Below, piece by piece: positions 14,746 to 29,969 of a stretch of DNA of 64,000 bases (position 1 is its first letter; each line of letters opens with the position of its first letter). A program made the position numbers and the translations under genes. The notes under the pieces are model-generated. The model ran no database searches, was not told where the DNA came from, and saw nothing but the letters and a program-made list of their open reading frames with translations. Source of the stretch: Verrucomicrobiaceae bacterium (lineage in GTDB: Bacteria; Verrucomicrobiota; Verrucomicrobiia; Verrucomicrobiales; Akkermansiaceae); assembly GCA_027486655.1 (NCBI GenBank), contig JAIXOR010000073.1:62001-126000 (forward strand), in the 5' to 3' direction.

Positions 14746-17538
14746 TCAGCCGAGGATCTGCGCGAGCACGTAGGGAAGGATGCCTCCGGCGCGGTAGTAG
14801 TCTTTTTCCACCGGGGTATCGATGCGGACGATGACGGGGATGTCGAAGCTGGAGCCCTCCGCCTTGTGGACGCGGAGGGTGGCCTGCTGCTGCGGCTTGA
14901 GGTCGTTGTCGATGCCGAGGATGTCGAAGGTGGCGTCGGCGAGGTCCTTCACCTTATCGTAGTCCGCCTTGTTCACGAAGTTGCAGGGCAGCACGCCCAT
15001 GCCGACGAGGTTGGAGCGGTGGATGCGCTCGAAGGACTTGGTGATGACGGCCTTGACGCCTAACAGGTTGGTGCCCTTCGCCGCCCAGTCGCGGCTGGAG
15101 CCCATGCCATAGTCCTCACCGCCGATGATGATGGTGGGAATGCCTTGTTTCTGATAGGTGGCGGCGGCGTCGTAGATGGCCTGGGTTTCACCGTGGATTT
15201 TGGTGACTCCGCCTTCCACGCCGGGAACCATCAGGTTCTTGATACGGACATTCGCGAAGGTGCCGCGGGTCATGATGCGGTCGTTGCCGCGGCGCGAGCC
15301 GTAGGAGTTGAAGTCGGCGAAGTCGACGCCCTTCTCGGTGAGGAAACGTCCGGCCGGGCTGTCCTTCTTGATCGCTCCGGCGGGAGAGATGTGGTCGGTG
15401 GTCACGGAATCCCCGAAGATGCCGAGCGGGCGCGCTCCCATGATCTCCACGATGTCCCGCGGGGCGGGGGAGAATCCGTCGAAGAAGGGCGGCTCCTGGA
15501 TGTAGGTGGATTCGCGGTCCCACTCGTAAACATTGCCGGTGGAGGACTTGATGCGGTTCCACTTGGGGTTCTGATCGGAGAAGCCGGTGTAAAGACGTTG
15601 GAAGACGTCCGGCTTGAGTGATGAGTTCATCGCGGCCTCGACTTCGCCGCCCGTGGGCCAGATGTCTTTCAGATAGACCGGTTGACCATCGGAGCCGAAA
15701 CCGAGCGGTTCGTTTTCCATGTCGATATCGACCGTTCCGGCGATGGCAAAGGCCACCACGAGCGGGGGCGACATGAGGAAGTTTGCCTTGATCGACTGGT
15801 GGACGCGGGCTTCGAAGTTTCTGTTTCCTGATAGAACGGAGGCGGCGATGATGTCCTCGGACTTCACCACATCCTCGATGCCGGGATCGAGCGGGCCGGA
15901 GTTTCCGATGCAGGTGGTGCAGCCGTAGCCGACGGTTTGGAAGCCGAGTTTGTCGAGTTCCGCCTGGAGGCCGGTTTTGTTGAGGTAATCGGTGACGACG
16001 CGCGAGCCGGGGCCAAGCGAGGTTTTCACCGAGGGCTTCACCGTGAGGCCTTTTTCATTGGCCTTTTTGGCGAGCAGACCCGCGGCGAGCATGACGCTTG
16101 GGTTGGAAGTGTTGGTGCAGGAAGTGATGGCCGCGATGAGCACGGAGCCGTGGGTGATGGTGTCCTTGATGCCGCCTTTGGAATCGACCGTGACCTCCCA
16201 AGCCGGATAGGCCGGGCCAGTGCCGGGTTCGGTGATCACGCCAACCTCCGCACCAAAGGCACGGCCGATGCCCGGGGCCTCGTCGGGCACGTGGTCCAGC
16301 GTTGCATCCAAGCCGAGCGGCAGCTCTTCCGGTTGCTTGTGGTAACCGTCCGGTGCGGGGCTTGTGAGAAGCGTGTTCCACTTTTCCTTCAACTCATGGA
16401 TCTCGATCCGGTCCTGCGGGCGCTTGGGTCCGGCCACTCCGGGTTTCACGGTGGAAAGATCGATTTCCACAACTTGGGAGAACTCGAGCGCGTCCTTCTC
16501 GGTGGGGATGCCCCACAGGCCCTGGGCCTTGTAGTAGTTCTCGACGGTCTTGCAGAGTTCCGGACTCCGACCGGTGCCGGCGAGATAGCCGGTGGTGATT
16601 TCGTCGATTCCGAAGAAACCCATCGTTGCCCCGTATTCCGGAGCCATGTTCGCAATGGTGGCACGGTCCGGCAGGCTGAGCGCCTTGGCACCGGGGCCGT
16701 AGAACTCGACGAACTTGCCGACGACCTTGGTTTTGCGCAGCACCTCGGTGACCAGCAGCACAAGGTCGGTGGCGGTGACGCCGGTGGCAAGTTCGCCGGT
16801 GAGGTAAACGCCAACGACTTCAGGCACGAGGAAGGTGACGGGTTGGCCGAGCATCCCTGCCTCCGCTTCGATGCCGCCTACGCCCCAGCCGACGACGCCG
16901 AGGCCGTTGATCATGGTGGTGTGCGAGTCCGTGCCGACGAGCGTGTCCGGATAGAAAACGCCGTCTTTTTCCAGCACGCACTTCGCTAGGTATTCCAGAT
17001 TCACCTGGTGGACGATGCCGATGCCGGGCGGCACGACCTTGAATGTGTCGAAAGCCTGCTCACCCCATTTCAGGAACTCGTAGCGCTCGCGGTTGCGGTG
17101 GAATTCGAGGTCGAGGTTGCGTTCCAGCGAGGTGCTCGTTCCCGCGTAGTCCACCTGCACCGAGTGGTCCACGACGAGGTCCACGGGCACGAGGGGTTCG
17201 ATCATCTTCGCGTCCTTGCCCATGGCGTGCACGGCGGAACGCATGGCGGCGAGGTCCACGAGCAGCGGTACGCCGGTGAAGTCCTGGAGCACGATGCGGG
17301 CAACCACGAAGGGGATCTCGAAATCGCCGGGGTTCTTCGCATCGTAGCTGGCGAGGTTCCGGATGTCCTTTTCGGTGACCTTGAGCCCGTCGTGGTTGCG
17401 CAGCAGCGATTCGAGCACGATCCGGATCGAAACCGGGAGCCTGGAAAGCTTCGGAAAACCCTGCTCGGCCAGAGCGGGGAGCGAGTGGAATGTCCCTTCG
17501 GTGCCGTAGCCTGTCTGAAACGTTCTGAGAGTGTCCAT
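14746..17538 (-). CDS. acnA: Aconitate hydratase A
   Basis: A 930-residue AcnA/IRP-type aconitase, full length. It interconverts citrate and isocitrate in the TCA cycle using a [4Fe-4S] cluster. Cluster cysteines are visible in [11 protein letters not shown] and in the Cys-x2-Cys of [14 protein letters not shown]. The N-terminal [19 protein letters not shown] and [14 protein letters not shown] are diagnostic, as are [11 protein letters not shown] and [14 protein letters not shown] in the swivel domain. The start [15 protein letters not shown] is as expected. Ten nt upstream of its start begins a ~300-bp repeat that is present again about 1.07 kb away, so its promoter probably lies in repeated sequence. 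A second aconitase, acnB, lies beyond the island. Confidence 0.97.
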
Positions 17539-18006: not shown

Positions 18007-18611
18007 ATGAACGACGATCCTTTGCCCCAGTCCGAAATCATCCTCTATCAGACCGAGGACGGGCGGACGCGCATCCAGTGCCGGTTTGAGAATGAAACTT
18101 TGTGGCTGACTCAGGCGCAGATTGCCGGGCTGTTCCAGACGACGCCGCAGAACGTCACCTTGCATCTGAAGTCCATTTTTGCCGAGGGGGAGCTGTCCGA
18201 GGAGGCAACTTGTAAGGATTACTTACAAGTTCGATTGGAAGGATGCCGGGAGGTCACGCGCAGACTGCGACATTACCGACTGGAGGCGATTCTGGCCGTG
18301 GGCTACCGCGTCCGCAGCCATCGCGGCACCCAGTTTCGCCAGTGGGCGACGGCGCGCCTTGGAGAGTACCTGGTGAAGGGTTTCACCATGGACGACGAGC
18401 GGCTTGAAAATCCGCCGGGCAAGGGGCAGGTAGATTACTTTCCGGCAAGATTTCCGCCGAGTCCGCGAAGACGAAAGCCGAGCAGGAGTATGCACGCTAT
18501 CGGAAGCTTCTGGACTCCCAGCCGCAGCGGGTGGATGAGGAGTTTGAGAAAGCGGCGCAGGAACTGAAGAAGTTGCCGCCACCCAGGAAGTCCCGGAAGC
18601 CGAAATCATGA
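18007..18611 (+). pseudogene. rhuM: rhuM-family gene with internal deletion and frameshift
   Basis: Residues 1-145 (18007-18441) are the conserved N-terminus of the RhuM (virulence protein RhuM/DUF4145-neighbour) family: IILYQTEDGRTRIQ, ETLWLTQAQIAGLFQTT, LEAILAVGYRVRSHRGTQFRQWAT and FTMDDERLENPPGKG. The frame then jumps. From 18444 a second frame encodes the typical RhuM C-terminus (GKISAESAKTKAEQEYARYR ... to a stop at 18609-18611). The middle ~150 residues are deleted at 18442-18443 and the join is out of frame, so no full product is made. RhuM genes often sit inside type I restriction operons, in line with the hsdM and hsdR remnants nearby. Direct repeats flank it on both sides. Confidence 0.8.
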
Positions 18612-18920: not shown

Positions 18921-19028
18921 CTCTGGATCTTTCCCATGTCCTCCCCCAAGCAAATGACTGCCCCGAACTCCTTTTCCGCCGCCTTTAGCGTTGGGCGAAG
19001 GCGGCTGCGGAAGCAGCCGAATCAAAGC

Positions 19029-19364
19029 ACCCCCACCCGCGGCCTCACCATCATGAACCTCGCCCTGCGCGGCATCGAGGCGGACTTCGGCAAGGAGCAC
19101 GCCGACACCTTCCGCACCGTCCGGCACCCCGACCTCCGCGCCGACTACTTGCTGGCCAATCCGCCCTTCAATCCCGCGCGATGCGGGACCAACTTCGACT
19201 GGGTGCAGCGCTTCATCCACCACCTCGCGCTCCACAGCATGGTCGGCTTCGTCCTCGGCAATGGCAGCATGTCCTCCAACCAGTCCGGCGAAGGCGACAT
19301 CCGCCGCGCCCTCATCGAGGCCGACCTCGCGGACTGCATGGTCGTGCGTTTATCATTAAACTAG
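19029..19364 (+). pseudogene. hsdM: hsdM fragment (type I restriction-modification methylase)
   Basis: An open frame carries part of an N6-adenine methylase: [23 protein letters not shown], the catalytic motif [19 protein letters not shown], and [29 protein letters not shown]. The N-terminal half and everything after DCMV are missing. About 25 residues between NPPFN and NFDWVQ are also deleted. Homology stops at about 19343, 31 nt before the Argonaute start. The frame runs to a stop at 19362-19364 through unrelated codons. The fragment cannot be an active methylase; it marks the left edge of the Argonaute module. Confidence 0.8.
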
Positions 19365-19373
19365 CTGAGACAA

Positions 19374-21665
19374 ATGAACACCAACCCCGCACTCGGACGC
19401 TACCTGCTCAACTGCTTCTCCGTTGATTTCTCGGTGCAATCGGTCACGGTTGCGCAGCTTCCGTGGACTGAGGAAACGGACATGCGCGAACTGAGGAAGC
19501 GTCTTGGAAATGATTGGTTCGTCCTGAGACGCGGCGACAGAATCTACGGGCTGCCTACCGTGCCAAAGCCTGCCGAGGAGTTCGCTCCAGTGACTACGGT
19601 TCTTCCGCTGACCGGTTACGATGGCCTCGATTTTATGAAAGCGAGGCTGGATGCAGCGCTTCCAAGTCTCTTGCCAGCATACCAACCCGAACGAGTCCGC
19701 CCGTTCCGCTTCCTCGCTCAGAAGGATGAGTTCGTCGCCAGCTTCGCAGCCAATCACCAACTTCCTGAAATCGTAAGACGAGGCTTTGCCATCCGCCCAC
19801 GATTTGAGTTGGATGCACGGACTATCGAATTGGTCGAAGGAGAGCTGCGAGTTGTCGTGGCGATGTCTGTGGCCATGCAGTGGGTGATTTCGGCGAGCCT
19901 GTCCGACCTCGCGAATCAGTCCGTTCAGCTTGATGGCCTCTATGTCGTCCTCAAACAGCCTCAACCCGGCGAACGCCGTCTGGTAGGCCGCATCAAAAGC
20001 GTTAATCAGGGCAACGTGGAACTTGACGAGACCATGGATGGACGAACGTCCATCGCGGCTGAACTGGTCCGTTTGGAAGGCAGTAAAGTCAGTTTCAAAC
20101 GCTGTCTGTCGCGGTTGCTCGGGGCACGCTATCGCGAATTCGAAGCGCAGCGCGACATTTGGGAGGCGAAGTTCACCAGCGGTCCTAGTTTCAACGTAGT
20201 GTTGGGAAAGTTTTCGCGGAGTTACCGAACTGTGAATCTCGGCCCTGGCATTATGGCCACTATCGGCGCAGCGATTCCGATTCATAACACCGCAGGGGCG
20301 CCAATCTATCGCGAGCTTCCTCCAGTCGAGTATTGCTTCGATGCAGCGAAGACGAAGCGAAAGACGATTTCCTGGGGCGGCTTGGTCGATTTCGGCCCCT
20401 TCGACAGCGACACGTTCGAAAAGCGGACGCCACGCATCTTGGTTGTCGTGCCGCAATCGGAGCAGAACAAAGCGGAGCAGGTGTTCGGCACTTTCCTCGA
20501 CGGTGTGCCGAACGGTCAATACCCAGTCGGCTTCGCCCGGCTGTTTAATCTTCGCCAAGTCAAATTCGACACTTGCCCGGTAGCGGACCAGCGTCTTGCG
20601 CAGAACCAACACGCTGCGGCGTATCGGGCAGCGATTGAATCTCATCTTAGCAGCGGGGCAAGCTATGATGCCGCACTCGTTGTGGTGCCCGATTTCAGCC
20701 GTCAGATGCCTGACGACCACAACCCGTTTTTGCACGCCAAGGCGCTGCTGTTGACGAATGGCATTCCTTCACAGGAGTTGCGAGTTACGACGCTCCACCA
20801 GTCGGACACATCTCTCCAATACACACTCCGAAACATCGCCGTTTCGCTTTACGCGAAGATGGACGGAGCGCCTTGGACTGTCAGTCAGCCGCGAACCTAC
20901 AACGACGAGATTGTCATTGGCATGGGCATGGCGGAGGTGGCGGGAAGCCGTGTCGAAAAGCGTCAGCGCCACATGGGCATCACCACTGTCTTCCTCGGGG
21001 ACGGCAACTTTCTCCTCTCGAACGTTTCGAAGGAATGCACATACGACGAGTATCCAGAGGTCTTGAAGGCTTCGACAAAGTCAATTCTCGCTGAGGTCAA
21101 ACGCCGCAATGGTTGGCAGCCCGGTGACCGAGTAAGGATAGTGTTTCACTCGGCCAAGCCGCTGAAAAACGTGGAGATTGACGAACTCATCGCCGAATGC
21201 GTTGCCGATGTCGCCGGGGAACAGGTTGTCGAGTTCGCGTCCCTCCAAGTCTCCCAAGACCACCCGTTCAAAATTATTGATCGATCCCAACAGGGAAAGA
21301 AATACGGCCAAACGATGAAGGGTGTTTACGCGCCCGCCCGTGGATTCGTCATGCAGCTCGGAGCCAGCACCAGACTGTTGGCGACGAACGGACCAGACCA
21401 AATCAAGCGCCCCCTCAGCCCTCTCCCTGCGCCGCTCTTGGTGCATCTGCATAAACGCTCCACGTCGAAATCGCTGGACGCTCTGACTGAGCAAATCCTC
21501 AAGTTTACCTCCATGACTTGGCGGTCCACATCTCCTGCGGCGATGCCAGTGACCATTTACTACTCCGAATTGATCGCCGAGTTGCTAGGCCGCTTCCGCA
21601 CACTCCCCGATTGGTCACCTGCACTGCTCAACACCAAGCTCCGCGCGAGCAAGTGGTTCTTATGA
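19374..21665 (+). CDS. Full-length prokaryotic Argonaute (pAgo) with catalytically dead PIWI domain
   Basis: A 763-residue protein. MID domain at ~353-505: the HAKALLLTNGIPSQELR segment (454-470) is the guide 5'-end pocket, and LRNIAVSLYAKMDGAPWTV is a hallmark of pAgos. PIWI at ~508-763: DEIVIGMGMAEV, VRIVFHSAKPLKNVEID, and FTSMTWRSTSPAAMPVTIYYSELIAELLGR. The first catalytic Asp is Gly518 (20925-20927), and the place of the third Asp reads His592-Ser593, so no slicing is expected. Residues 1-350 cover N, linker and PAZ-like regions, hence a long (long-B-like) Argonaute rather than a short APAZ-linked one. Its stop overlaps the CHAT gene start (ATGA). The start ATG follows an AT-rich stretch (19348-19362) and a weak ribosome site. 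Visibly lower GC than the flanks suggests acquisition. Confidence 0.92.
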   Translation: MNTNPALGRYLLNCFSVDFSVQSVTVAQLPWTEETDMRELRKRLGNDWFVLRRGDRIYGLPTVPKPAEEFAPVTTVLPLTGYDGLDFMKARLDAALPSLLPAYQPERVRPFRFLAQKDEFVASFAANHQLPEIVRRGFAIRPRFELDARTIELVEGELRVVVAMSVAMQWVISASLSDLANQSVQLDGLYVVLKQPQPGERRLVGRIKSVNQGNVELDETMDGRTSIAAELVRLEGSKVSFKRCLSRLLGARYREFEAQRDIWEAKFTSGPSFNVVLGKFSRSYRTVNLGPGIMATIGAAIPIHNTAGAPIYRELPPVEYCFDAAKTKRKTISWGGLVDFGPFDSDTFEKRTPRILVVVPQSEQNKAEQVFGTFLDGVPNGQYPVGFARLFNLRQVKFDTCPVADQRLAQNQHAAAYRAAIESHLSSGASYDAALVVVPDFSRQMPDDHNPFLHAKALLLTNGIPSQELRVTTLHQSDTSLQYTLRNIAVSLYAKMDGAPWTVSQPRTYNDEIVIGMGMAEVAGSRVEKRQRHMGITTVFLGDGNFLLSNVSKECTYDEYPEVLKASTKSILAEVKRRNGWQPGDRVRIVFHSAKPLKNVEIDELIAECVADVAGEQVVEFASLQVSQDHPFKIIDRSQQGKKYGQTMKGVYAPARGFVMQLGASTRLLATNGPDQIKRPLSPLPAPLLVHLHKRSTSKSLDALTEQILKFTSMTWRSTSPAAMPVTIYYSELIAELLGRFRTLPDWSPALLNTKLRASKWFL

Positions 21666-23056
21666 ACTCGGCAATGACAAATAGTTTTGGAGCCGAATTG
21701 TCGCGAATCGCGGCAAACTTGAAGGATTCCACTGTCTGGCCTTCTCCGGCGACCGGTCTTGCTCTTCAACTTCTAAAACTCTGCGGCTGTGACGAGCGCA
21801 GGACCAGTCTTCTCGGTCCAACTCCCTTTCCCGTAGGGCCTCTGGATGCCGCCCCAGCCGCCGCCGCCGCTGGATTCGCGATGGCCGTATCTGAACCTCA
21901 GCCTGAGGAACTGTTGCGCTGGCGGGAAGGCATGAAACGACTTGTGAAGCGGGAACCATTTCCACGCGACCGCCAAACCTTCGCCTACCGCCCGACAGAG
22001 TTGGTCGGGTTGGCCCTTGGCATTTCGGCAGCAGAAGACCGAAGCGGTGGGTCAGCTACATGGATTCGGTCGGTTATCCAAATTTTGCCCAGCAAAAGCC
22101 CTCCAACAAACCCGTGGGCGCTCCTGCTCTACCACTACGCCGCTGCAATTCTTGGAGTCAAATTACCGCTCGCAATTCCAGCCCGACTTTCGGAATACGA
22201 CACCACCGAGCTTGGTTTGCTGATTGCACTGCTGGCACAAGGCAGCGTGTTCAAGGCACCCGAATTTGACGCGAGTGCAGCCCAGAATGCCTTGCTCGGG
22301 CGAGTCGTAACTGAAAGCCCCATTGCTCGGGACACCGAAAGACTGGCGGCCTTGTTTGGTGCCCTTTCGCTGAGCCTAAAAACCCGGCTCTCTGCATCCA
22401 GTTCATTCACCCCAACGCTTCCAATAACCACGATCATGAAACAGAAAATCCTCTTCCTCGCCGCAAATCCGACCGGCACAACGCCATTGGCCCTCGATGA
22501 GGAATGCCGACAAATCACGGAGAAAATCAGGGCAGCCGCCCACCGTGACTCGCTGGAATTGATCACGCGTTGGGCAGTGCGCCCCGAGGACTTACTCCAG
22601 CACCTGAACGAGCACAGGCCCCACGTCGTTCATTTTAGCGGGCACGGGACTGCTACCGAGGAGATCGTGCTTCTCGACAAGGACAAGAATCCGAAGACCG
22701 TTCCAGCGCCGGCGCTAAAGCAGCTCTTCGCGACGTTGAAGGATAACATTCGTGTCGTGGTCCTGAATGCTTGCTTCTCGAAGCAACAAGCCTCCGCGAT
22801 CACTGAAGTGGTGGACTGTGCGATCGGCATGAACAAGGCCATCGGTGACGACGCAGCGATCGCGTTTGCTGCTGCATTTTATCAAGCAATCGGTTTCGGG
22901 AGGTCGGTCAAAGTCGCGTTCGAGTCAGGGAAGAGCGCCTTGATGTTGGAAGGGATTCCTGAGGAGGAGACTCCCGAACTCATTTGCAGAACGGGGGTGG
23001 ACCCAGCCGCAATCGTGTTAGTTGAATCCGACCTCGCACAGCGAAACCCCAAGTAG
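21662..23056 (+). CDS. CHAT-domain (caspase-like) protease with unknown N-terminal domain
   Basis: 464 residues, starting at the ATG that overlaps the Argonaute stop codon (ATGA). Residues ~259-450 form a CHAT domain: KQKILFLAANPTGT, VHFSGHG with catalytic His328, and VVVLNACFS with catalytic Cys371, followed by AIGMNKAIGDDAAIAFAAAFYQAI, all typical of CHAT proteases linked to bacterial conflict systems. Residues 1-258 are mostly helical and Ala/Leu-rich. I recognise no domain in them; they could bind the Argonaute or the STAND partner. An in-frame ATG at 22436 begins exactly at the CHAT domain, so a short form is possible. It sits between pAgo and the NB-ARC-PPR protein and is probably the effector. 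Confidence 0.88.
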   Translation: MNSAMTNSFGAELSRIAANLKDSTVWPSPATGLALQLLKLCGCDERRTSLLGPTPFPVGPLDAAPAAAAAGFAMAVSEPQPEELLRWREGMKRLVKREPFPRDRQTFAYRPTELVGLALGISAAEDRSGGSATWIRSVIQILPSKSPPTNPWALLLYHYAAAILGVKLPLAIPARLSEYDTTELGLLIALLAQGSVFKAPEFDASAAQNALLGRVVTESPIARDTERLAALFGALSLSLKTRLSASSSFTPTLPITTIMKQKILFLAANPTGTTPLALDEECRQITEKIRAAAHRDSLELITRWAVRPEDLLQHLNEHRPHVVHFSGHGTATEEIVLLDKDKNPKTVPAPALKQLFATLKDNIRVVVLNACFSKQQASAITEVVDCAIGMNKAIGDDAAIAFAAAFYQAIGFGRSVKVAFESGKSALMLEGIPEEETPELICRTGVDPAAIVLVESDLAQRNPK

Positions 23057-23092
23057 GCTCACCGGAGTCCGGCGCTGCTCCGCCGGTGAGCC
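23056..23092 (+). promoter_or_regulatory. Hairpin covering the start codon of the NB-ARC-PPR gene
   Basis: The arms ggctcaccgg (23056-23065) and ccggtgagcc (23083-23092) form a perfect 10-bp stem. An alternative inner pairing is ccggcg/cgccgg (23069-23074 with 23081-23086). The GTG start codon (23086-23088) lies inside the right arm. There is no T-run, so it is not a terminator. It may limit translation of the ATPase. Confidence 0.5.
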
Positions 23093-25770
23093 AGACAAGT
23101 GCGGCGGGACATCCATTGGCCGGTGCTGACGCACCCGCGAATGTGCTGGCGACGGCCATTCCGTGCTACTTGCCGGAGAGAAACCCGCACTTCCGAGGAC
23201 GCAAAGATGACATTTCGAGGTTGAGAGAATCTTTGGGCCGATCAAAATCGGTCGGGGTTACTCAGCAGGTTGCGGTTTTTGCGTCGGGAGGTGTGGGAAA
23301 ATCCTCTTTGGCGCTGGACTTCGCATGGGATTGCTTTGCTTCCAGGCCGTCAAAGTATCACGGCGGAGTGTTTTGGTGCGATTGCCGGAGCCGGGACATT
23401 TCGAGTTTGGCGGATGGACTCGCGTCACTCGCTGGACCGCTCGGTATCGCTAGTGCTGACACCAACGACCCTCTTCCAGTTGCTCAAAAAGTGCGTGAGC
23501 GGCTCACGAATGGGCCTCCGTCGCTCTTGATTCTCGATAACGTCATTGATGCGGAACAATGGAAGGATAAGGATTGGAACGCCCTCATCCCAAGCGGCAA
23601 CTGTAGTCGGTTGCTGACTACACGAGCAGAAACTGTGGGAGACCAACGCGTTCCCATGCTCAGTCTGGATTGCCTTTCGGAGGCAGACGCGCGTGAACTC
23701 CTGCATTCTTATCGTCAAGACGTATGCCTCGAAGTGAAAGATGATTCGGTGAAGCGCATCATCGAATGGTTCGGCGGGCTGGCGATCGGTTTAACGGTAG
23801 TGGGCATTTACCTCGGAATTCACACCTCTGTCACATGGGATGCCTACTGGACGAGCCTGAATAAAAAGGGCTTTGATGCAGTGCGGGATACTGAGGATCT
23901 CGCTGCGCCGGCTGACTACGCCAATCGCGTGGACGCTGTTATTGACGATGTTTTCCGTTCCCTCACTCCGGCTGAGCGACGAACGCTATTCTACATCTCG
24001 ATATTGCCGGGTGAGGATGTGAGCGACCGTTGGCTTATTGAGCTGCTCACCGACGACCTAAATGCCCGAAAGATTGCAGGCAGTGTGCCTCCGGGATACT
24101 CGTCACTCCCTGAGGCGGTCTTTGCGCGATTGATGCGACGGGGAATACTCCTTCGATTGATTGAAACAACCACGCGTAAGACGGTCTTTCTGCATCAGGT
24201 CGTCCGGGAAAGGCTTCGCGAGTTATTGAAGCTGGAACATTCACTTAGCCGGGAACTGTCTGCCCACGTGCGACAACTTGCGACCAGACTTTACCACCGA
24301 TCCAGGGAGTGGACCCGGGCAATTGCGGAATCTGCAAATCTGGTAGAAGCCCAGAAGCTTTTGACCTCCATGGTCACCGCCGAGTTCGACCCGGATGTTT
24401 ACACCTTTACCGCACTCCTATCGAAAGCGGCCACATTCGATGAGGCAAAGGCGGTCTTTAACCAAATGAAGGGTGCAGGGCACAAGCCGACCTTCTTTAC
24501 GTTCAACACGTTGCTTACGAAGGCCGAAACCTACGCGGATGCTAAGGTTGTCGTGGCGCAAATGAAGGAGGCGGGCGAGAAGCCCGATGAATTCACATTC
24601 AATACGCTATTGTGGAAGGTAGGAGACTTCCAAGAAGCTGAGACCGTTATTGTGCAGATGGAGGCGGCGGGTGTGGAACTCAACGCTCGCACCTTCAATC
24701 GCTTGCTGTCGTTGGCGAGAACCTTTGACGAATCGATGGCTATCCTCGGTGAAATGCGGAGCAGAGACTTCAGACCTCAATTGTATTTTGTTCGCAATCT
24801 GATGTGGTCAGCACGCACCTATGAACAGGCGCAAGCAGTCGCTGCCGAGATTGAGGCAGCCGGCGGAAACCTAGGTGAACTCCAATTCAAAGCCTTATTG
24901 TCGAAAGCTACAACCGATGAGCAGATCGATGCCGTGGTTTCGCGCGGAGAGCGGGCGGGCTTTCCGCTCAAGCTCCGAGCATTGAATCGAAGATTGAGAA
25001 CCGCCGAATCGTTCAAGGATGCCATGGGAATGTTTGTGCGTTTGCTGGAGTCCGGCCAGAAACCGATCTGGCATACATTCCGGGGTTTGTTCACTCATGC
25101 AAAGAGCAAAGAGGAGATTCTAGCAATCGCGCACCAAATGCAGGCTGCTGGCGTGCAGCCGAAGGAAGCCAATTTGATGAAGATGTTGTTGAAGACGAGA
25201 ACTGAAGGAGAGGCACAATCAGTTATCGCCACACTGGAATCAGCTGGCATTCGGATATGGGGGAATAACATGAAGTCGGCGTTGCCAGCGGCAGTAAATT
25301 ATCCAGAGGCCAAGAGAATGATTGAGGAGATGCTGGCCAAGGACGAAAAGCCCAGTGTTGTTCAGTTTACATCGCTATTTTCGCAGCACGAGGGTTTGCC
25401 GCACGTTGAAGAAATCCTTGGTTGGTATTACGGGCTTCCGTATCACCCTTCCGACCCACTGAACGCATTGGTGGCGAGCCTGAGGGCGCTTGGGCGAGTT
25501 GGTGAGGCTATGACCGTCGTGCTGCAGCACCCACATCTCTCGGCGGGGCAACGGTTGATGCGCGAGTTTCAGGATGATGCACGAACACTCTTCCAATCCG
25601 CCAAGACAAAGGATCCGACCCATCCAACCGCCGACCTAGCCCTTGGAATTCTTGCGATGGAAACAAACAGACTAAATGAGGCAAAAGCACATTTCGAAGA
25701 AGCCCTTCTGCGAGCCAGACATCCCAAGAAGATTGAGACGATTCAATCGAAGCTCAAGCTTCTGGGTTGA
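23086..25770 (+). CDS. NB-ARC (STAND) ATPase with twelve 32-residue PPR-like repeats
   Basis: 894 residues from a GTG start; no ATG lies upstream in frame after the stop at 23023. Residues ~35-400 are an NB-ARC module: FRGRKDDISRLR, Walker A SGGVGKSSLA (Lys72), Walker B SLLILDN (146-152), SRLLTTRAE, GGLAIGL (the GLPLAL motif), and a winged-helix region ending FLHQVVRERL. Residues 407-790 are twelve consecutive 32-residue repeats, phase 407, 439, 471 ... 759 with no gap. Their consensus is FTFNTLLxKAxTFxEAxxVxxQMxxAGxKPxx, which is pentatricopeptide-like but 3 residues shorter than the canonical 35. A TPR-like pair closes the protein. In organelles PPR arrays bind RNA; in STAND proteins such arrays usually sense a ligand. 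It is likely the sensor or oligomerising scaffold for the CHAT protease. Confidence 0.9.
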   Translation: MSQTSAAGHPLAGADAPANVLATAIPCYLPERNPHFRGRKDDISRLRESLGRSKSVGVTQQVAVFASGGVGKSSLALDFAWDCFASRPSKYHGGVFWCDCRSRDISSLADGLASLAGPLGIASADTNDPLPVAQKVRERLTNGPPSLLILDNVIDAEQWKDKDWNALIPSGNCSRLLTTRAETVGDQRVPMLSLDCLSEADARELLHSYRQDVCLEVKDDSVKRIIEWFGGLAIGLTVVGIYLGIHTSVTWDAYWTSLNKKGFDAVRDTEDLAAPADYANRVDAVIDDVFRSLTPAERRTLFYISILPGEDVSDRWLIELLTDDLNARKIAGSVPPGYSSLPEAVFARLMRRGILLRLIETTTRKTVFLHQVVRERLRELLKLEHSLSRELSAHVRQLATRLYHRSREWTRAIAESANLVEAQKLLTSMVTAEFDPDVYTFTALLSKAATFDEAKAVFNQMKGAGHKPTFFTFNTLLTKAETYADAKVVVAQMKEAGEKPDEFTFNTLLWKVGDFQEAETVIVQMEAAGVELNARTFNRLLSLARTFDESMAILGEMRSRDFRPQLYFVRNLMWSARTYEQAQAVAAEIEAAGGNLGELQFKALLSKATTDEQIDAVVSRGERAGFPLKLRALNRRLRTAESFKDAMGMFVRLLESGQKPIWHTFRGLFTHAKSKEEILAIAHQMQAAGVQPKEANLMKMLLKTRTEGEAQSVIATLESAGIRIWGNNMKSALPAAVNYPEAKRMIEEMLAKDEKPSVVQFTSLFSQHEGLPHVEEILGWYYGLPYHPSDPLNALVASLRALGRVGEAMTVVLQHPHLSAGQRLMREFQDDARTLFQSAKTKDPTHPTADLALGILAMETNRLNEAKAHFEEALLRARHPKKIETIQSKLKLLG

Positions 25771-25876: not shown

Positions 25877-25977
25877 TGCCATTCGGGTCAGAGTATACAG
25901 ATTCACATGACGACTTCAATTTTGTGAAGCCGAGAGCACTCGGTAACTTGCACGCTGACGGTCACGGGCCGTAAACC

Positions 25978-26012
25978 AAAAAGCCGTCCGCTTCGTGCAG
26001 GGACGGCTTTTG
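25978..26012. terminator. Bidirectional terminator hairpin (repeat copy 1)
   Basis: The stem aaagccgtcc/ggacggcttt is flanked by A on the left and T on the right, so it can work on either strand. It is duplicated at 27140-27171. Confidence 0.65.
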
Positions 26013-26037
26013 GGAAATGATCGGACGTTGGGAAGTA

Positions 26038-26246
26038 TCAACCCGCCACCAGCTCCTTCACCGGAGGAGCTAAGATGGTGAGGTCGATGCCTTCGACGGC
26101 GGTTTTGTATTCCTCCAGGCTTGGGGTGCGGCCGAGGACGGCGGAGAGGACGACGACCGGGGTGGAGGAGAGCAGGGACTCGCCTTTTTTCCGATCCGAG
26201 TCTTCCACGACGCGGCCTTGGAAGAGGCGGGTGGAGGTGACCATGA
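26038..26246 (-). pseudogene. acnB: Duplicated C-terminal fragment of acnB
   Basis: It encodes the same C-terminus as the intact acnB (STRLFQGRVVEDSDRKKGES ... PPVKELVAG) with only two or three residue changes near the end. The homology starts at the codon matching the VMATSTRLF region of acnB and nothing upstream is acnB-like. It has no function as an enzyme. It is the left half of the repeat pair that brackets the toxin-antitoxin genes. Confidence 0.85.
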
Positions 26247-26366
26247 TAGAGAAATGGTTCGGTTTCCGCTGCATTCTCGTCGGAGGCAACGGAGCTATTC
26301 CGCTTTGGCTTGGACAGCGAATTGAGGCGTGAACTCAGACGGGATGATGCTTCGATTCCTATAGGA

Positions 26367-26675
26367 TCAGCGTGCCTCCTGAAGTGGGACGACTGCGCTG
26401 AGTTCGCTGGCCTTTTCGCGCTGGGTTTTGCGGAAGAGATAATGGTTCTGCAGGCGCATCCAGTATTCCGGCTCGTTTCCGAAGTAGCGACCGAGCTTCA
26501 GGCAGTGCTCGGGGGTGAGCAAGCGGCGGCTGGCGAGGATGTCATTCAGCAGTTGGGGGCTGATGTGGAGATCTGCGGCAAGTTTCGCTTGGGTGAGGCC
26601 ATGATCGTCCAGAAAATCCCGCAGCATGGCGGCGGCGGAATTGGTCAGGGAAATTTCGGTGGTCTTGGGTTTCAT
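26367..26675 (-). CDS. higA: HigA-family antitoxin
   Basis: 102 residues with a central XRE-type helix-turn-helix (LTQAKLAADLHISPQLLNDILASRRLLTPEHCLKLGRYF) and the HigA/VapI-like tail EPEYWMRLQNHYLFRKTQRE. It would bind and neutralise the HigB toxin and repress the operon. It starts 4 nt after the toxin stop codon. The toxin-first order is typical of higBA. The pair sits between two copies of the acnB 3' end, so it is part of the acquired region. Confidence 0.88.
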   Translation of the reverse strand: MKPKTTEISLTNSAAAMLRDFLDDHGLTQAKLAADLHISPQLLNDILASRRLLTPEHCLKLGRYFGNEPEYWMRLQNHYLFRKTQREKASELSAVVPLQEAR

Positions 26676-26679
26676 GCCT

Positions 26680-26961
26680 TCAATGATAGTCGGTGATTTG
26701 CACGTTGTGGGCGTCTTGGCCTTCCCATTGGAAGATGATGCGCCACTGTTTGTTGATGCGGATGGAATGGAATCCGGCGAGATTGCCTTTCAGAAGCTCC
26801 AAGTGATTGCTGGGAGGCTGGCGAAGGTTTTCGAGCGACACCGCCTCATGGATAGCTACTAGCTTGTGATAAGCACGTTCCTGAATCTCCGGGGCGATTT
26901 TGCGCGAAAACGTCAGGTTGTAGATTTTCTCAGTTTCCTTGTCTCCAAAGCTGACGATCAC
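26680..26961 (-). CDS. higB: HigB-family toxin (RelE/ParE superfamily)
   Basis: About 93 residues from a GTG start, VIVSFGDKETEKIYN, which corresponds to the conserved family N-terminus (MIKSFxDKETExI); an upstream ATG at 27039 would add 26 residues. Conserved segments are AYHKLVAIHEAVSLENLRQPPSNHLELLKG and FHSIRINKQWRIIFQWEGQDAHNVQITDYH, with the catalytic basic residues of ribosome-dependent mRNA endonucleases. It forms a toxin-antitoxin pair with the downstream higA. Confidence 0.87.
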   Translation of the reverse strand: MIVSFGDKETEKIYNLTFSRKIAPEIQERAYHKLVAIHEAVSLENLRQPPSNHLELLKGNLAGFHSIRINKQWRIIFQWEGQDAHNVQITDYH

Positions 26962-27045
26962 GTGTGTGAAAATACTCGAATGCGCGTAGTTTGCAAGTAA
27001 GAAGTTCTCAAATTTGCGTATTCCGGGGAGGCCCTCCAATGCATG

Positions 27046-27406
27046 GGGTCAGAGTACACAGATTCACATTGCGACTTCAATTTGGTGGATCCGAGAGCAC
27101 TCGGTAACTTGGACCCTTACGGTCACGGTCCGTAAACCAAAAAGCCGTCCGCTGCGAGCAGGGACGGCTTTGGGGAGTGATCGGATGATGGCACCTATCA
27201 ACCCGCCACCAGCTCCTTCACCGGCGGAGCGAAGGTGGTGAGGTCGATGCCTTCGACCGCGGTTTTGTATTCTTCGAGGCTTGGGGTGCGGCCGAGGACG
27301 GCGGAGAGGACGACGACCGGGGTGGAGGAGAGGAGGGACTCGCCTTTTTTGCGATCCGAGTCTTCCACGACGCGGCCTTGGAAGAGGCGGGTGGAGGTGG
27401 CCATGA
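27046..27406. repeat. ~360-bp direct repeat, copy 2 (genuine acnB 3' end)
   Basis: Second copy of 25885-26246, offset by about 1160 bp. This copy belongs to the intact acnB gene and its terminator, so copy 1 is the duplicate. Confidence 0.85.
27140..27171. terminator. acnB terminator hairpin
   Basis: The stem aaagccgtcc/ggacggcttt lies downstream of the acnB stop on the minus strand with flanking A/T runs. It is the same hairpin as at 25978-26012. Confidence 0.7.
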
Positions 27407-29969
27407 CGGTGTCGCCTTTTTCGGCTTTCTCCTGGTTGCCCATGCACAGGTTGCAACCGGGGCGCTCGAGATACATCATGTTCTGATACTCGGTGCGGGC
27501 GGCGGTTTTCGGTGCGTTGTCGTCGAACTCGAAGCCAGAGTACTTTTGCAGGATGTCCCAGTCGCCCTCTTCCTTGAGTTCGTCGATGATGTTGTAGGTC
27601 GGTGCGGCGACCACGAGCGGTGCGTTGAACTCCACCTTGCCCTGCGATTGTTCGAGGTTGCGGAGCATTTTGGAAACGATTTTGAGGTCGCCCTTGTGGA
27701 CCATGCAGGAGCCGACGAAGCCGAGGTCGATGGACTTGCAGCCGCCGTAGTAGGAGAGCCCGCGGATGACGTCGTGGGTGTAGCGCTTGGAAACGTCCTC
27801 GTTGTTCACGTCCGGGTCGGCGATCATCGGTTCGTCGATGAGGTCGAGGTCCACGACCATCTCGGCGTGATACTTCGCGTTCGCATCGGGGGCGAGCGGC
27901 GGTTTTTCCCCGGAGCGGATGCCGGCGATACGGGCGTTTGCCTTGTCGATGAGGCCTTGCAGGACGCCGGACTCGTTGTCCATGCCCTTGTCGATCATGA
28001 TCTGGATGCGGCTCTTGGCGATTTCCAGCGACTCGATGAGCGTTTCCGGTTGGGAAATGCAGATGGAGGCCTTGGCCTTCATTTCCGCGGTCCAGTCGGT
28101 GAAGGTGAAGGCCTGGTCGGCGGGGAGGGTGCCGATGTGGACTTCGATCACGCGGCCTTGGAAGACGTTTTCACCGAACTTCTTCAGCATCTGTGCCTGG
28201 GTGGCGTGGACAACGTCGCGGAAGTCCATGTAGGGCTTCATTGTGCCCTTGAACGTGACTTTCACCGACTGCGGGATCGGCATCGTGGCCTCACCGGTGG
28301 CGAGCGCGAGGGCGACCGTGCCGGAGTCCGCTCCGAAAGCGACGCCCTTCGACATGCGGGTGTGCGAGTCGCCGCCGATGATGATGTCCCAATCGTCCAC
28401 GGTGAGGTCGTTGAGCACCTTGTGGATGACGTCGGTCATCGCGTGGTAGCCGTCCTTCGGGTCGCGGGCGGTGATGAGGCCGAAGCCCTGCATGAAGGAC
28501 ATCAGCTTCGGGATGTTGGCCTGTGCCTTCTTGTCCCAAACGGAAGCCGTGTGGCAGCCCGACTGGTAGGCGGCATCGACCGTCGGCGAAATGACCGTGG
28601 CGGCCATCGCTTCGAGTTCCTGCGAGGTCATCAGGCCGGTCGTGTCTTGCGAGCCGACGATGTTTACCTTCACGCGGACATCGGAGCCGGCGTGCAGGGT
28701 GAGCCCCGGCGTGGTGCCGACGGCGTTGCGGTTGAAAATCTTCTCCACGGCGGTGAGGCCCTGGCCCGGGTGGGAGACTTCCTTGGCGGGGGCGAAGACG
28801 GTCGGTGTGGGGACTCCGAGCGTCTCGGCGGCGAAGGTCTGGAGCTTCTTGCCGAAGACGATGGCGTAGGAGCCGCCGGCCTTGATGAACTCCAGCTTCT
28901 GCGGGGTGAAGGCCGAGGAGATATCAGCCAACTCCTTGCCGTTGCCGTAGAGTTTCTTTTCCTTCGTGTTGATGGTGAGCACGGTCCCGGTTTCCACCGA
29001 GTAGGCCTGCTCCAGGATGGGATCGCCATTGGCGTCCTTAACCACCTTGCCCTCGGCGTCGGTTTTCTTGACCCAGTTCTTCAGGTCGAGCCCGATGCCG
29101 CCGGTGACGCTCACGGTGGTGAGGAAGATCGGGGAAATGCCGTTGGTGCCCGCGACAATGGGGAAGATGTTCACGAAGGGCACGTAGGGGCTGGCCTGCT
29201 TGCCAGTCCAGAGCGCGACGTTGTTCACGCCGGACATGCGCGACGAGCCGACGCCCATGGTGCCTTTTTCCGCGATGAGCATGACGCTCTTGTCGGGGTG
29301 GAGTTTTTGCAGCGCCTTGATCGTGTCCTGGGCTTCCGCGCTGATCAGGCACTTGCCGTGCAGCTCGCGGTCCGCGCGCGAGTGCGCCTGGTTGCCGGGC
29401 GAGAGAAGGTCGGTGGAAATGTCACCTTCGGCGGCAATGAAGGTGACTACCTGGATTTCCTCCGGCACGTCGGGGAGCTTCGTGAAGAACTCGGCGGCGG
29501 CGTAGCTTTCGAGGATTTCCTTCGCGATGGGATTTCCGGCCTCGTAGGCGGCCTTGAGGCGGGCGGTGTCCGCGTCGTAGAGGTAAACCTGGGTTTTCAG
29601 GACCTCGGCGGCTTGTTTGGCGATATGGGCATCGGTGCCGAGTGCGAGGTTGAGCAGCGTGGTGATCGAGGCACCGCCCTTCATGTGGGAGAGCAGCTCG
29701 AAGGCGAAGGGCGTGGAGATTTCCTCCACCTTGGATGTGCCGAGGATGATTTCCTCCAGGAAGCGGGCCTTCTCACCGGCGGCGCTGGTGGTGCCGGGCA
29801 GCGTGTTGTAGATCAGGAACTGGAGGGAGTCCTTGCGGTGCGGGTTGGCCGGATCCTTGATTTGGGAAATGATCTCGGCGGTGAGTGCGCCGCTGTCGAT
29901 GGGTTTCGGGTGCAGGCCGGCGGCTTTGCGTTCCTCAATTTCTGCCAAGTAGTCCTGATAGAGCTGCAT
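27198..29969 (-). CDS. acnB: Bifunctional aconitate hydratase 2 / 2-methylisocitrate dehydratase
   Basis: 923 residues, a full-length AcnB with the HEAT-like N-terminal domain that distinguishes it from AcnA (MQLYQDYLAEIEERKAAGL, SHMKGGASITTLLNLALG). Catalytic and cluster signatures include GVGSSRMSGVNN, GGDSHTRMSKGVAFGADSG, GSCMVHKGDLK and the Cys-x2-Cys of CNLCMGNQEKA. It interconverts citrate and isocitrate and can act in the methylcitrate cycle. Its 3' end has been copied to 26038-26246 around the higBA insertion, and the intact gene remains. AcnA lies on the same strand about 10 kb away, with the island between them. Confidence 0.97.
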   Translation of the reverse strand: MQLYQDYLAEIEERKAAGLHPKPIDSGALTAEIISQIKDPANPHRKDSLQFLIYNTLPGTTSAAGEKARFLEEIILGTSKVEEISTPFAFELLSHMKGGASITTLLNLALGTDAHIAKQAAEVLKTQVYLYDADTARLKAAYEAGNPIAKEILESYAAAEFFTKLPDVPEEIQVVTFIAAEGDISTDLLSPGNQAHSRADRELHGKCLISAEAQDTIKALQKLHPDKSVMLIAEKGTMGVGSSRMSGVNNVALWTGKQASPYVPFVNIFPIVAGTNGISPIFLTTVSVTGGIGLDLKNWVKKTDAEGKVVKDANGDPILEQAYSVETGTVLTINTKEKKLYGNGKELADISSAFTPQKLEFIKAGGSYAIVFGKKLQTFAAETLGVPTPTVFAPAKEVSHPGQGLTAVEKIFNRNAVGTTPGLTLHAGSDVRVKVNIVGSQDTTGLMTSQELEAMAATVISPTVDAAYQSGCHTASVWDKKAQANIPKLMSFMQGFGLITARDPKDGYHAMTDVIHKVLNDLTVDDWDIIIGGDSHTRMSKGVAFGADSGTVALALATGEATMPIPQSVKVTFKGTMKPYMDFRDVVHATQAQMLKKFGENVFQGRVIEVHIGTLPADQAFTFTDWTAEMKAKASICISQPETLIESLEIAKSRIQIMIDKGMDNESGVLQGLIDKANARIAGIRSGEKPPLAPDANAKYHAEMVVDLDLIDEPMIADPDVNNEDVSKRYTHDVIRGLSYYGGCKSIDLGFVGSCMVHKGDLKIVSKMLRNLEQSQGKVEFNAPLVVAAPTYNIIDELKEEGDWDILQKYSGFEFDDNAPKTAARTEYQNMMYLERPGCNLCMGNQEKAEKGDTVMATSTRLFQGRVVEDSDRKKGESLLSSTPVVVLSAVLGRTPSLEEYKTAVEGIDLTTFAPPVKELVAG

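Follow-up and report, generated by a model that had tools for sequence, protein, structure and literature searches.

The stretch of DNA analysed here (the window) comprises 64,000 nucleotides of contig C86 of a Verrucomicrobiaceae genome in 87 contigs. An intact acnB gene of 923 amino acids (27198-29969, minus strand; NCBIfam PRK09238, E 1e-285) lies in this window, and its 3' end is present twice. The in-place copy, T1 (27046-27406), comprises the last ~70 acnB codons, the stop codon, a terminator-like hairpin and ~90 bp more. The displaced second copy, T2 (25885-26246), carries the same content, acnB 3' end and 3' flank, at 92% identity to T1. As one gapped match the two copies align over 362 columns at 92%, and the repeat search of the window returned the pair as two segments, 26009-26246 with 27169-27406 (238 nt, 93%) and 25885-26015 with 27046-27176 (131 nt, 90%). 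Both the extent and the content of this repeat had been correctly given in the preliminary description. A match of 362 columns is far above chance, and a chance likeness of T1 and T2 was rejected; the acnB tail was found nowhere else in this genome. The space between the copies is filled by a higBA pair, as had also been stated beforehand: a higB toxin ORF (26680-27039, minus strand; PF05015, E 2e-19) is followed by a higA antitoxin gene (26367-26675, minus strand; HTH_3, E 2e-8), which by Pfam profiles is the HigBA type II toxin-antitoxin layout of a HigB-family toxin gene and then an HTH antitoxin gene. Translation of higB probably begins at a GTG near 26961, the point from which it resembles its relatives. 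Our analysis confirmed that the duplication of the acnB tail around an intact higBA pair is real, and showed that acnB is intact with its stop codon and terminator while the other tail copy is displaced. The inner junction of T2 (J1, 26242-26246) reads TCATG on the acnB strand and falls on an in-frame Met codon of acnB.

T1 and T2 differ at 4.3% of positions in the coding part and at 12.4% past the stop codon (19/153), which fits the earlier statement that the duplication is not very recent. Only three amino-acid changes were observed in T2, against the 7.6-9.3 expected under drift in place (P 0.02-0.06); the fragment has fewer changes than free drift would give, and the two copies may therefore have separated before coming together here. 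The outer end of T2 carries a short repeat, motif M (GGTCAGAGTAYACAGATTCACAT, 25886-25908, plus strand), which is also found in T1 at 27047-27069. Motif M occurs at nine places in the genome at three or fewer mismatches, against none in the control, and the genome holds 11 exact 12-mers of it. No Y1 transposase was found close to these places among the 15 Y1 transposase matches listed, and transposition through this recurring motif was set aside. Matches to motif M were also noticed at L027 and L028; at L027 the motif adjoins tandem 164-bp units, which we take to resemble the tail of a REP-associated transposase.

On the same strand as acnB and 9,660 bp downstream of it lies acnA (~14752-17538, minus strand; NCBIfam AcnA). 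The order from acnB is T1, higBA, T2, an NB-ARC gene, a CHAT gene, an Argonaute-like gene, a methyltransferase fragment, P2, a RhuM remnant, P1 and acnA. The island genes, from NB-ARC to the methyltransferase fragment, are on the strand opposite to acnB: an NB-ARC protein with PPR-type repeats (23086-25770, plus strand), a gene with a C-terminal CHAT domain and an N-terminal part similar to Argonaute-associated helical nuclease models (21518-23056, plus strand), a prokaryotic Argonaute-like gene (19374-21665, plus strand; PADLOC pAgo_II, E 1.9e-201) and a fragment of a type I DNA methyltransferase (18936-19364, plus strand; PF02384, E 7.7e-17). Being adjacent and on one strand, the Argonaute-like, CHAT and NB-ARC genes (19374-25770) possibly form a single defence system. 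At E 1e-40 the NB-ARC protein has one other match in the 386 genomes of the order, in G032 (69%), where it lies ~200 kb from acnA. The 5' flank of acnA is likewise present twice, as an in-place copy, P1 (17536-17851), and a second copy, P2 (18607-18922), at 90% identity across 316 bp, each with an inverted-repeat element inside it. Between them is a RhuM-family remnant (18007-18567, plus strand; PF13310, E 1.5e-29; PADLOC PDC-S05) that matches the first part of the profile only. Its 3' end meets the end of P2 that corresponds to the acnA start codon, and this inner junction (J2, 18607-18611) reads TCATG on the acnA strand. P1 and P2 differ at 32/315 positions (10.2%), similar to the divergence past the acnB stop codon (p 0.53). 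With the acnB tail present twice around higBA and the acnA 5' flank twice around RhuM, the interval thus holds two local duplications, each around a small gene module; the preliminary description mentions neither acnA nor the second of these.

Loci with acnB and no duplication were sought in relatives and found. In all ten relatives fetched from outside the genus, picked for high acnB identity, acnB is followed by acnA across a gap of 136-1156 bp. Within the genus, at the thresholds used, acnB was found in 9 of 73 genomes and acnA in 66. The idea that acnB was gained and displaced acnA was dropped because acnB precedes acnA in all ten of these further relatives, and the loss of acnB or acnA is the simpler reading. 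The acnB of this genome has its closest counterpart in G378 (95%), which belongs to a different genus within the family, those of its own genus reaching 92% at most. The gap is 256 bp in G009 and 438 bp in G077. Larger gaps occur in G062 (851 bp, holding a distant higBA pair), G028 (4,507 bp, holding a restriction-type gene) and G071 (4,751 bp), where the gap holds a Upx-like gene that scores far under the cut-off of the NCBIfam Upx model. A second acnB tail of 118 bp (96.6%) lies between the Upx-like insert of G071 and acnA. At an uncultured Verrucomicrobiales locus (L118), acnB is followed by two ORFs, one zeta-toxin-like (PF06414, E 1.3e-8) and the other small and with no Pfam match, and then by a repeat of its own final 44 bp. 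The matching arrangement of G071 and L118, with different cargo, together with acnB directly before acnA in family relatives, backs the insertion that the preliminary description had proposed. The single acnB tail ahead of acnA in G009, G077 and the ten relatives is followed by sequence that does not align with the window, and the motif M-bearing 3' flank of T1 and T2 had no match in the relatives compared. The acnB-acnA gap is a spot used by toxin-antitoxin and defence genes. Duplication at the acnB tail itself is uncommon: a protein search of the 80 acnB-bearing genomes among the 386 of the order, which would miss a tail copy as short as that of L118, returned this genome and G071, and among 80 GTDB loci L118 was the one case. 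The acnB tail was accordingly rejected as a common target.

The HigB proteins nearest to that of the window (85-89%) are those of G032, G022 and G033, and all three are encoded at acn genes or their remnants. In G032, which has no acnB match, acnA is followed by higBA; in G033 an acnA tail remnant lies directly after acnB. A single acnB with higBA adjacent and no repeat, which the preliminary description had held against an insertion, occurs in part in G022: one acnB is followed by the same type of higBA and there is no acnB-tail repeat, and higBA lies there between tail copies of yaaA, a yaaA tail fragment on one side and a yaaA gene on the other (118 bp, 72%; the gene name comes from Pfam on the G033 copy). 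Since all three nearest relatives are at acn genes, exchange or inheritance of the locus fits as well as fresh insertion; since higBA has other flanking neighbours in these genomes, its position is not conserved. In G022 (L021, 15762-15995) and G033 (L060), acnA is cut to an identical in-frame remnant of 78 codons in which the first ~43 codons are joined to the last ~30.

A pair of sister species supplies an empty site at another gene. In G092, a higBA module (Pfam HigB, HTH_3) lies between two 158-bp copies of the purA 3' end that are 664 bp apart. In its sister species G090, the lysC side, which is 98.8% identical between the two across 1,487 bp, is joined to a single purA tail, and the module is absent. 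The two G092 tail copies share two bases against G090. In the match table of the 73 genomes (five without a match), two matches covering most of the purA tail copy occurred in G092 only. Another 164 bp, left of the purA tail, is also missing from G090, so that one more change took place there and the empty-site pair is not perfectly clean. By eye, the apparent end of another antitoxin gene was seen to the left of a G092 purA tail copy (L215, 5425-5775), and this spot may therefore have taken more than one module.

We then surveyed direct repeats around higB loci in the genus. Of 84 loci from one match list, 30 came with the list and 54 were fetched by hand, mostly in order of score; two were too short, leaving 82, each located by its best HigB match and with related insertions perhaps counted more than once. 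Cross-flank direct repeats, called at E 1e-6 between left and right flank, were present at 21/82 higB loci and 22/500 pseudo-modules (Fisher 1e-8). Repeats were called tight when they lay within 150 bp before higB and within 460 bp after it, which leaves room for higA. Tight repeats were found at 11/82 higB loci and at 3/500 pseudo-modules (Fisher 6e-8), or at 10/81 higB loci without the discovery locus (Fisher 3e-7). The 500 draws overlap and were taken from 54 of the fetched regions, and the three tight pseudo-modules are all in one locus with a tandem repeat. An early control gave 7/300 pseudo-modules with repeats, all from two loci, this window (four) and L100 (three, at a known repeat), a small control 4/43, and the acnA loci 0/29.

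Five of the 11 tight repeats are at gene 3' ends: those of acnB, yaaA, citramalate synthase (155 bp, 96.8%), purA (99.4%) and one unnamed gene (97 bp, 100%, at a contig edge). Five others look dispersed, three from their copy number in the locus (L041, L217, L242) and two by eye (L252, L253), and the last (L234) is of ambiguous kind; these six need not be target duplications. Taken alone, the four other gene-end cases give 4/81 against 0/500 (p 4e-4), where the three tandem-repeat control matches were dropped in the same way as the dispersed cases. Outside the tight set are a 246-bp copy at L048, seemingly a gene tail with its 3' flank, and a 128-bp copy at L225. The tail at L227 presumably resembles glyA. 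At L051, positions 720-789, to the left of an intact higB, resemble the beginning of higA, perhaps as a result of successive toxin-antitoxin insertions. In a second family, none of 27 HigB loci had a tight repeat and two had any repeat (the three weakest of 30 loci were left out), so that perhaps only some lineages show the effect (p 0.06). With dispersed repeats among the tight set and 0/27 in the second family, the general idea that every higBA repeat is a target duplication was rejected.

A mobile carrier was searched for in several ways. The ORFs of the acnB-acnA interval of the window include no recognised integrase gene, nor do those of the inserts of G071, G028, G062 and L118, which were inspected by eye and partly by family scan. 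The phage search gave no match, and a scan of viral contigs with HigB gave no confirmed relative. Among plasmids, 38 records matched and none reached 80% coverage of the query; the eight listed match at acnB tails only, and seven of these are annotated acnB genes. A prophage, plasmid or viral element was rejected on these searches. Simple patterns for attC cores were absent from all 19 repeats checked (this window, L030, and L033 were left out), and an integron cassette was likewise rejected. The preliminary description had proposed that a circular element recombined into acnB. Insertion at the 3' end, leaving an intact gene and a displaced tail, is supported; a circular or integrative element was not found in the plasmid, phage and viral-contig searches.

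We consider it an even chance (probability about 0.5) that higBA entered the 3' end of acnB without an integrase of its own and left a long target duplication. On this reading higBA would be an addiction module whose entry duplicates its target: acnB would keep a complete tail and terminator, and the second tail copy would be pushed to the far side of the module. The resident tail might have recombined with a tail-plus-module circle by a single crossover, or the join might have been homologous on one side and illegitimate on the other. Direct repeats 1.2 kb apart should collapse through RecA recombination with loss of the module, and killing of the cells that lose the antitoxin would keep them. 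Such selection by addiction against collapse could explain why repeats of this kind are found around toxin-antitoxin and restriction-modification genes.

A serious rival to this long target duplication, although in our judgement a rather doubtful one, is a nested insertion in which a second acnB-acnA interval (T2, the Argonaute, CHAT and NB-ARC genes, and P2) came from a related lineage into the resident interval, acnB-T1-higBA-RhuM-P1-acnA, between higBA and RhuM, the cuts lying at GTCATGG both within acnB and at the start of acnA. The higBA pair would then lie between tails merely by juxtaposition. The order T-higBA-T-island-P-RhuM-P fits a single nested event, the divergence past the acnB stop codon and in P is alike, and the few amino-acid changes in T2 fit a copy that was within a working gene for most of its history. 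TCATG is present at both inner junctions, where the ends of the in-place copies read GTCATGGCCAC and GTCATGGACAC, although this match was spotted post hoc. The proposed donor or recipient interval was seen in none of the genomes fetched, the one other match to the NB-ARC gene in the order is far from acnA, and higBA modules elsewhere have gene-end duplications with no nested island. Nesting is kept at the rank of a rival because none of the genomes fetched carries the nested interval and the TCATG match was a post hoc one. The few amino-acid changes in the fragment also speak against a local tandem duplication of the acnB tail, with higBA entering later or the repeat being unrelated to it. This we regard as improbable, since the excess of tight repeats at higBA modules and the purA empty-site pair both tie the repeats to the module; in its favour, both copies carry the same 3' flank with motif M, unmatched in the relatives compared.

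Two further explanations we hold to be very improbable. Integrase-borne integrative elements are typically marked by duplicated gene 3' ends, and the three different cargoes at acnB would also suit an element that used this 3' end as its attachment site and later lost its integrase. Against such an element are the lack of a recognised integrase in the window interval and in the four other inserts, the unequal duplication lengths (362, 118 and 44 bp), and the outcome of the carrier searches, in which phages gave no copy and every plasmid record fell short of 80% query coverage. Old residency, by which the acn locus in this genus already contained higBA, and recombination among relatives shifted it and left incomplete copies, would account for the three nearest HigB relatives being at acn genes or remnants and for the acnA tail remnant directly after acnB in G033; the flank neighbours of higBA in those three genomes are, however, different.

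Returning to integrase-free entry with a long target duplication, these data suggest that toxin-antitoxin pairs are able to move without an integrase, leaving duplicated gene tails. This addresses an old question, by what route toxin-antitoxin pairs on chromosomes spread when no mobile element carries them: the gene-end copies record the insertion event, and at purA a sister species supplies the empty site. That addiction preserves an otherwise unstable repeat is a directly testable idea. More tentatively, these Verrucomicrobiota may hold a class of integrase-free cassettes for which a housekeeping 3' end serves as the attachment site, host recombination makes the joins and might also release a tail-plus-module circle, and the repeats are kept from collapsing by addiction; the gap between the aconitase genes might then reflect several rounds, taking toxin-antitoxin and anti-phage genes in turn.

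Several known systems resemble this arrangement in part. Integrative elements at gene 3' ends likewise leave the gene intact with a tail fragment on the far side, whereas here no integrase was recognised, the duplication lengths vary and the cargo is one or two genes. Integron gene cassettes include small toxin-antitoxin cassettes between direct repeats, the attC sites; the small module between direct repeats is alike, but the 19 repeats checked have no attC-type core. Homology-facilitated illegitimate recombination, which follows DNA uptake, can duplicate its anchor when one join is homologous and the other illegitimate; the repeats at acnB are alike, although both the joins and any DNA uptake there are conjectural. 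A search of titles and the starts of abstracts in an open library found no report of gene-tail duplications around toxin-antitoxin pairs.

The closest counterpart is the insertion of restriction-modification genes with long, variable target duplications of the order of 100 bp, as described in excerpts of PMC3874152, PMC3031569 and PMC1643837, which cite Nobusato et al. 2000 and Furuta et al. 2010 as its sources. According to the same excerpts, some of these insertions are unlinked to a mobile element and a related genome has a single copy of the target. So far as the excerpts go, the likeness lies in an addiction-type module with direct repeats of the target, variable in length, on both sides. 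Target repeats on both sides of the insert are present at acnB, and the single-copy empty site is present at purA (G092 and G090). The cargo here is instead a toxin-antitoxin pair, a zeta-toxin-like pair or a Upx-like gene; among the targets, 3' ends of genes stand out, and the hosts are Verrucomicrobiota, not Helicobacter. Because the insert is higBA and not a restriction-modification set, we do not file the locus as a restriction-modification case; it works like that class and extends it.
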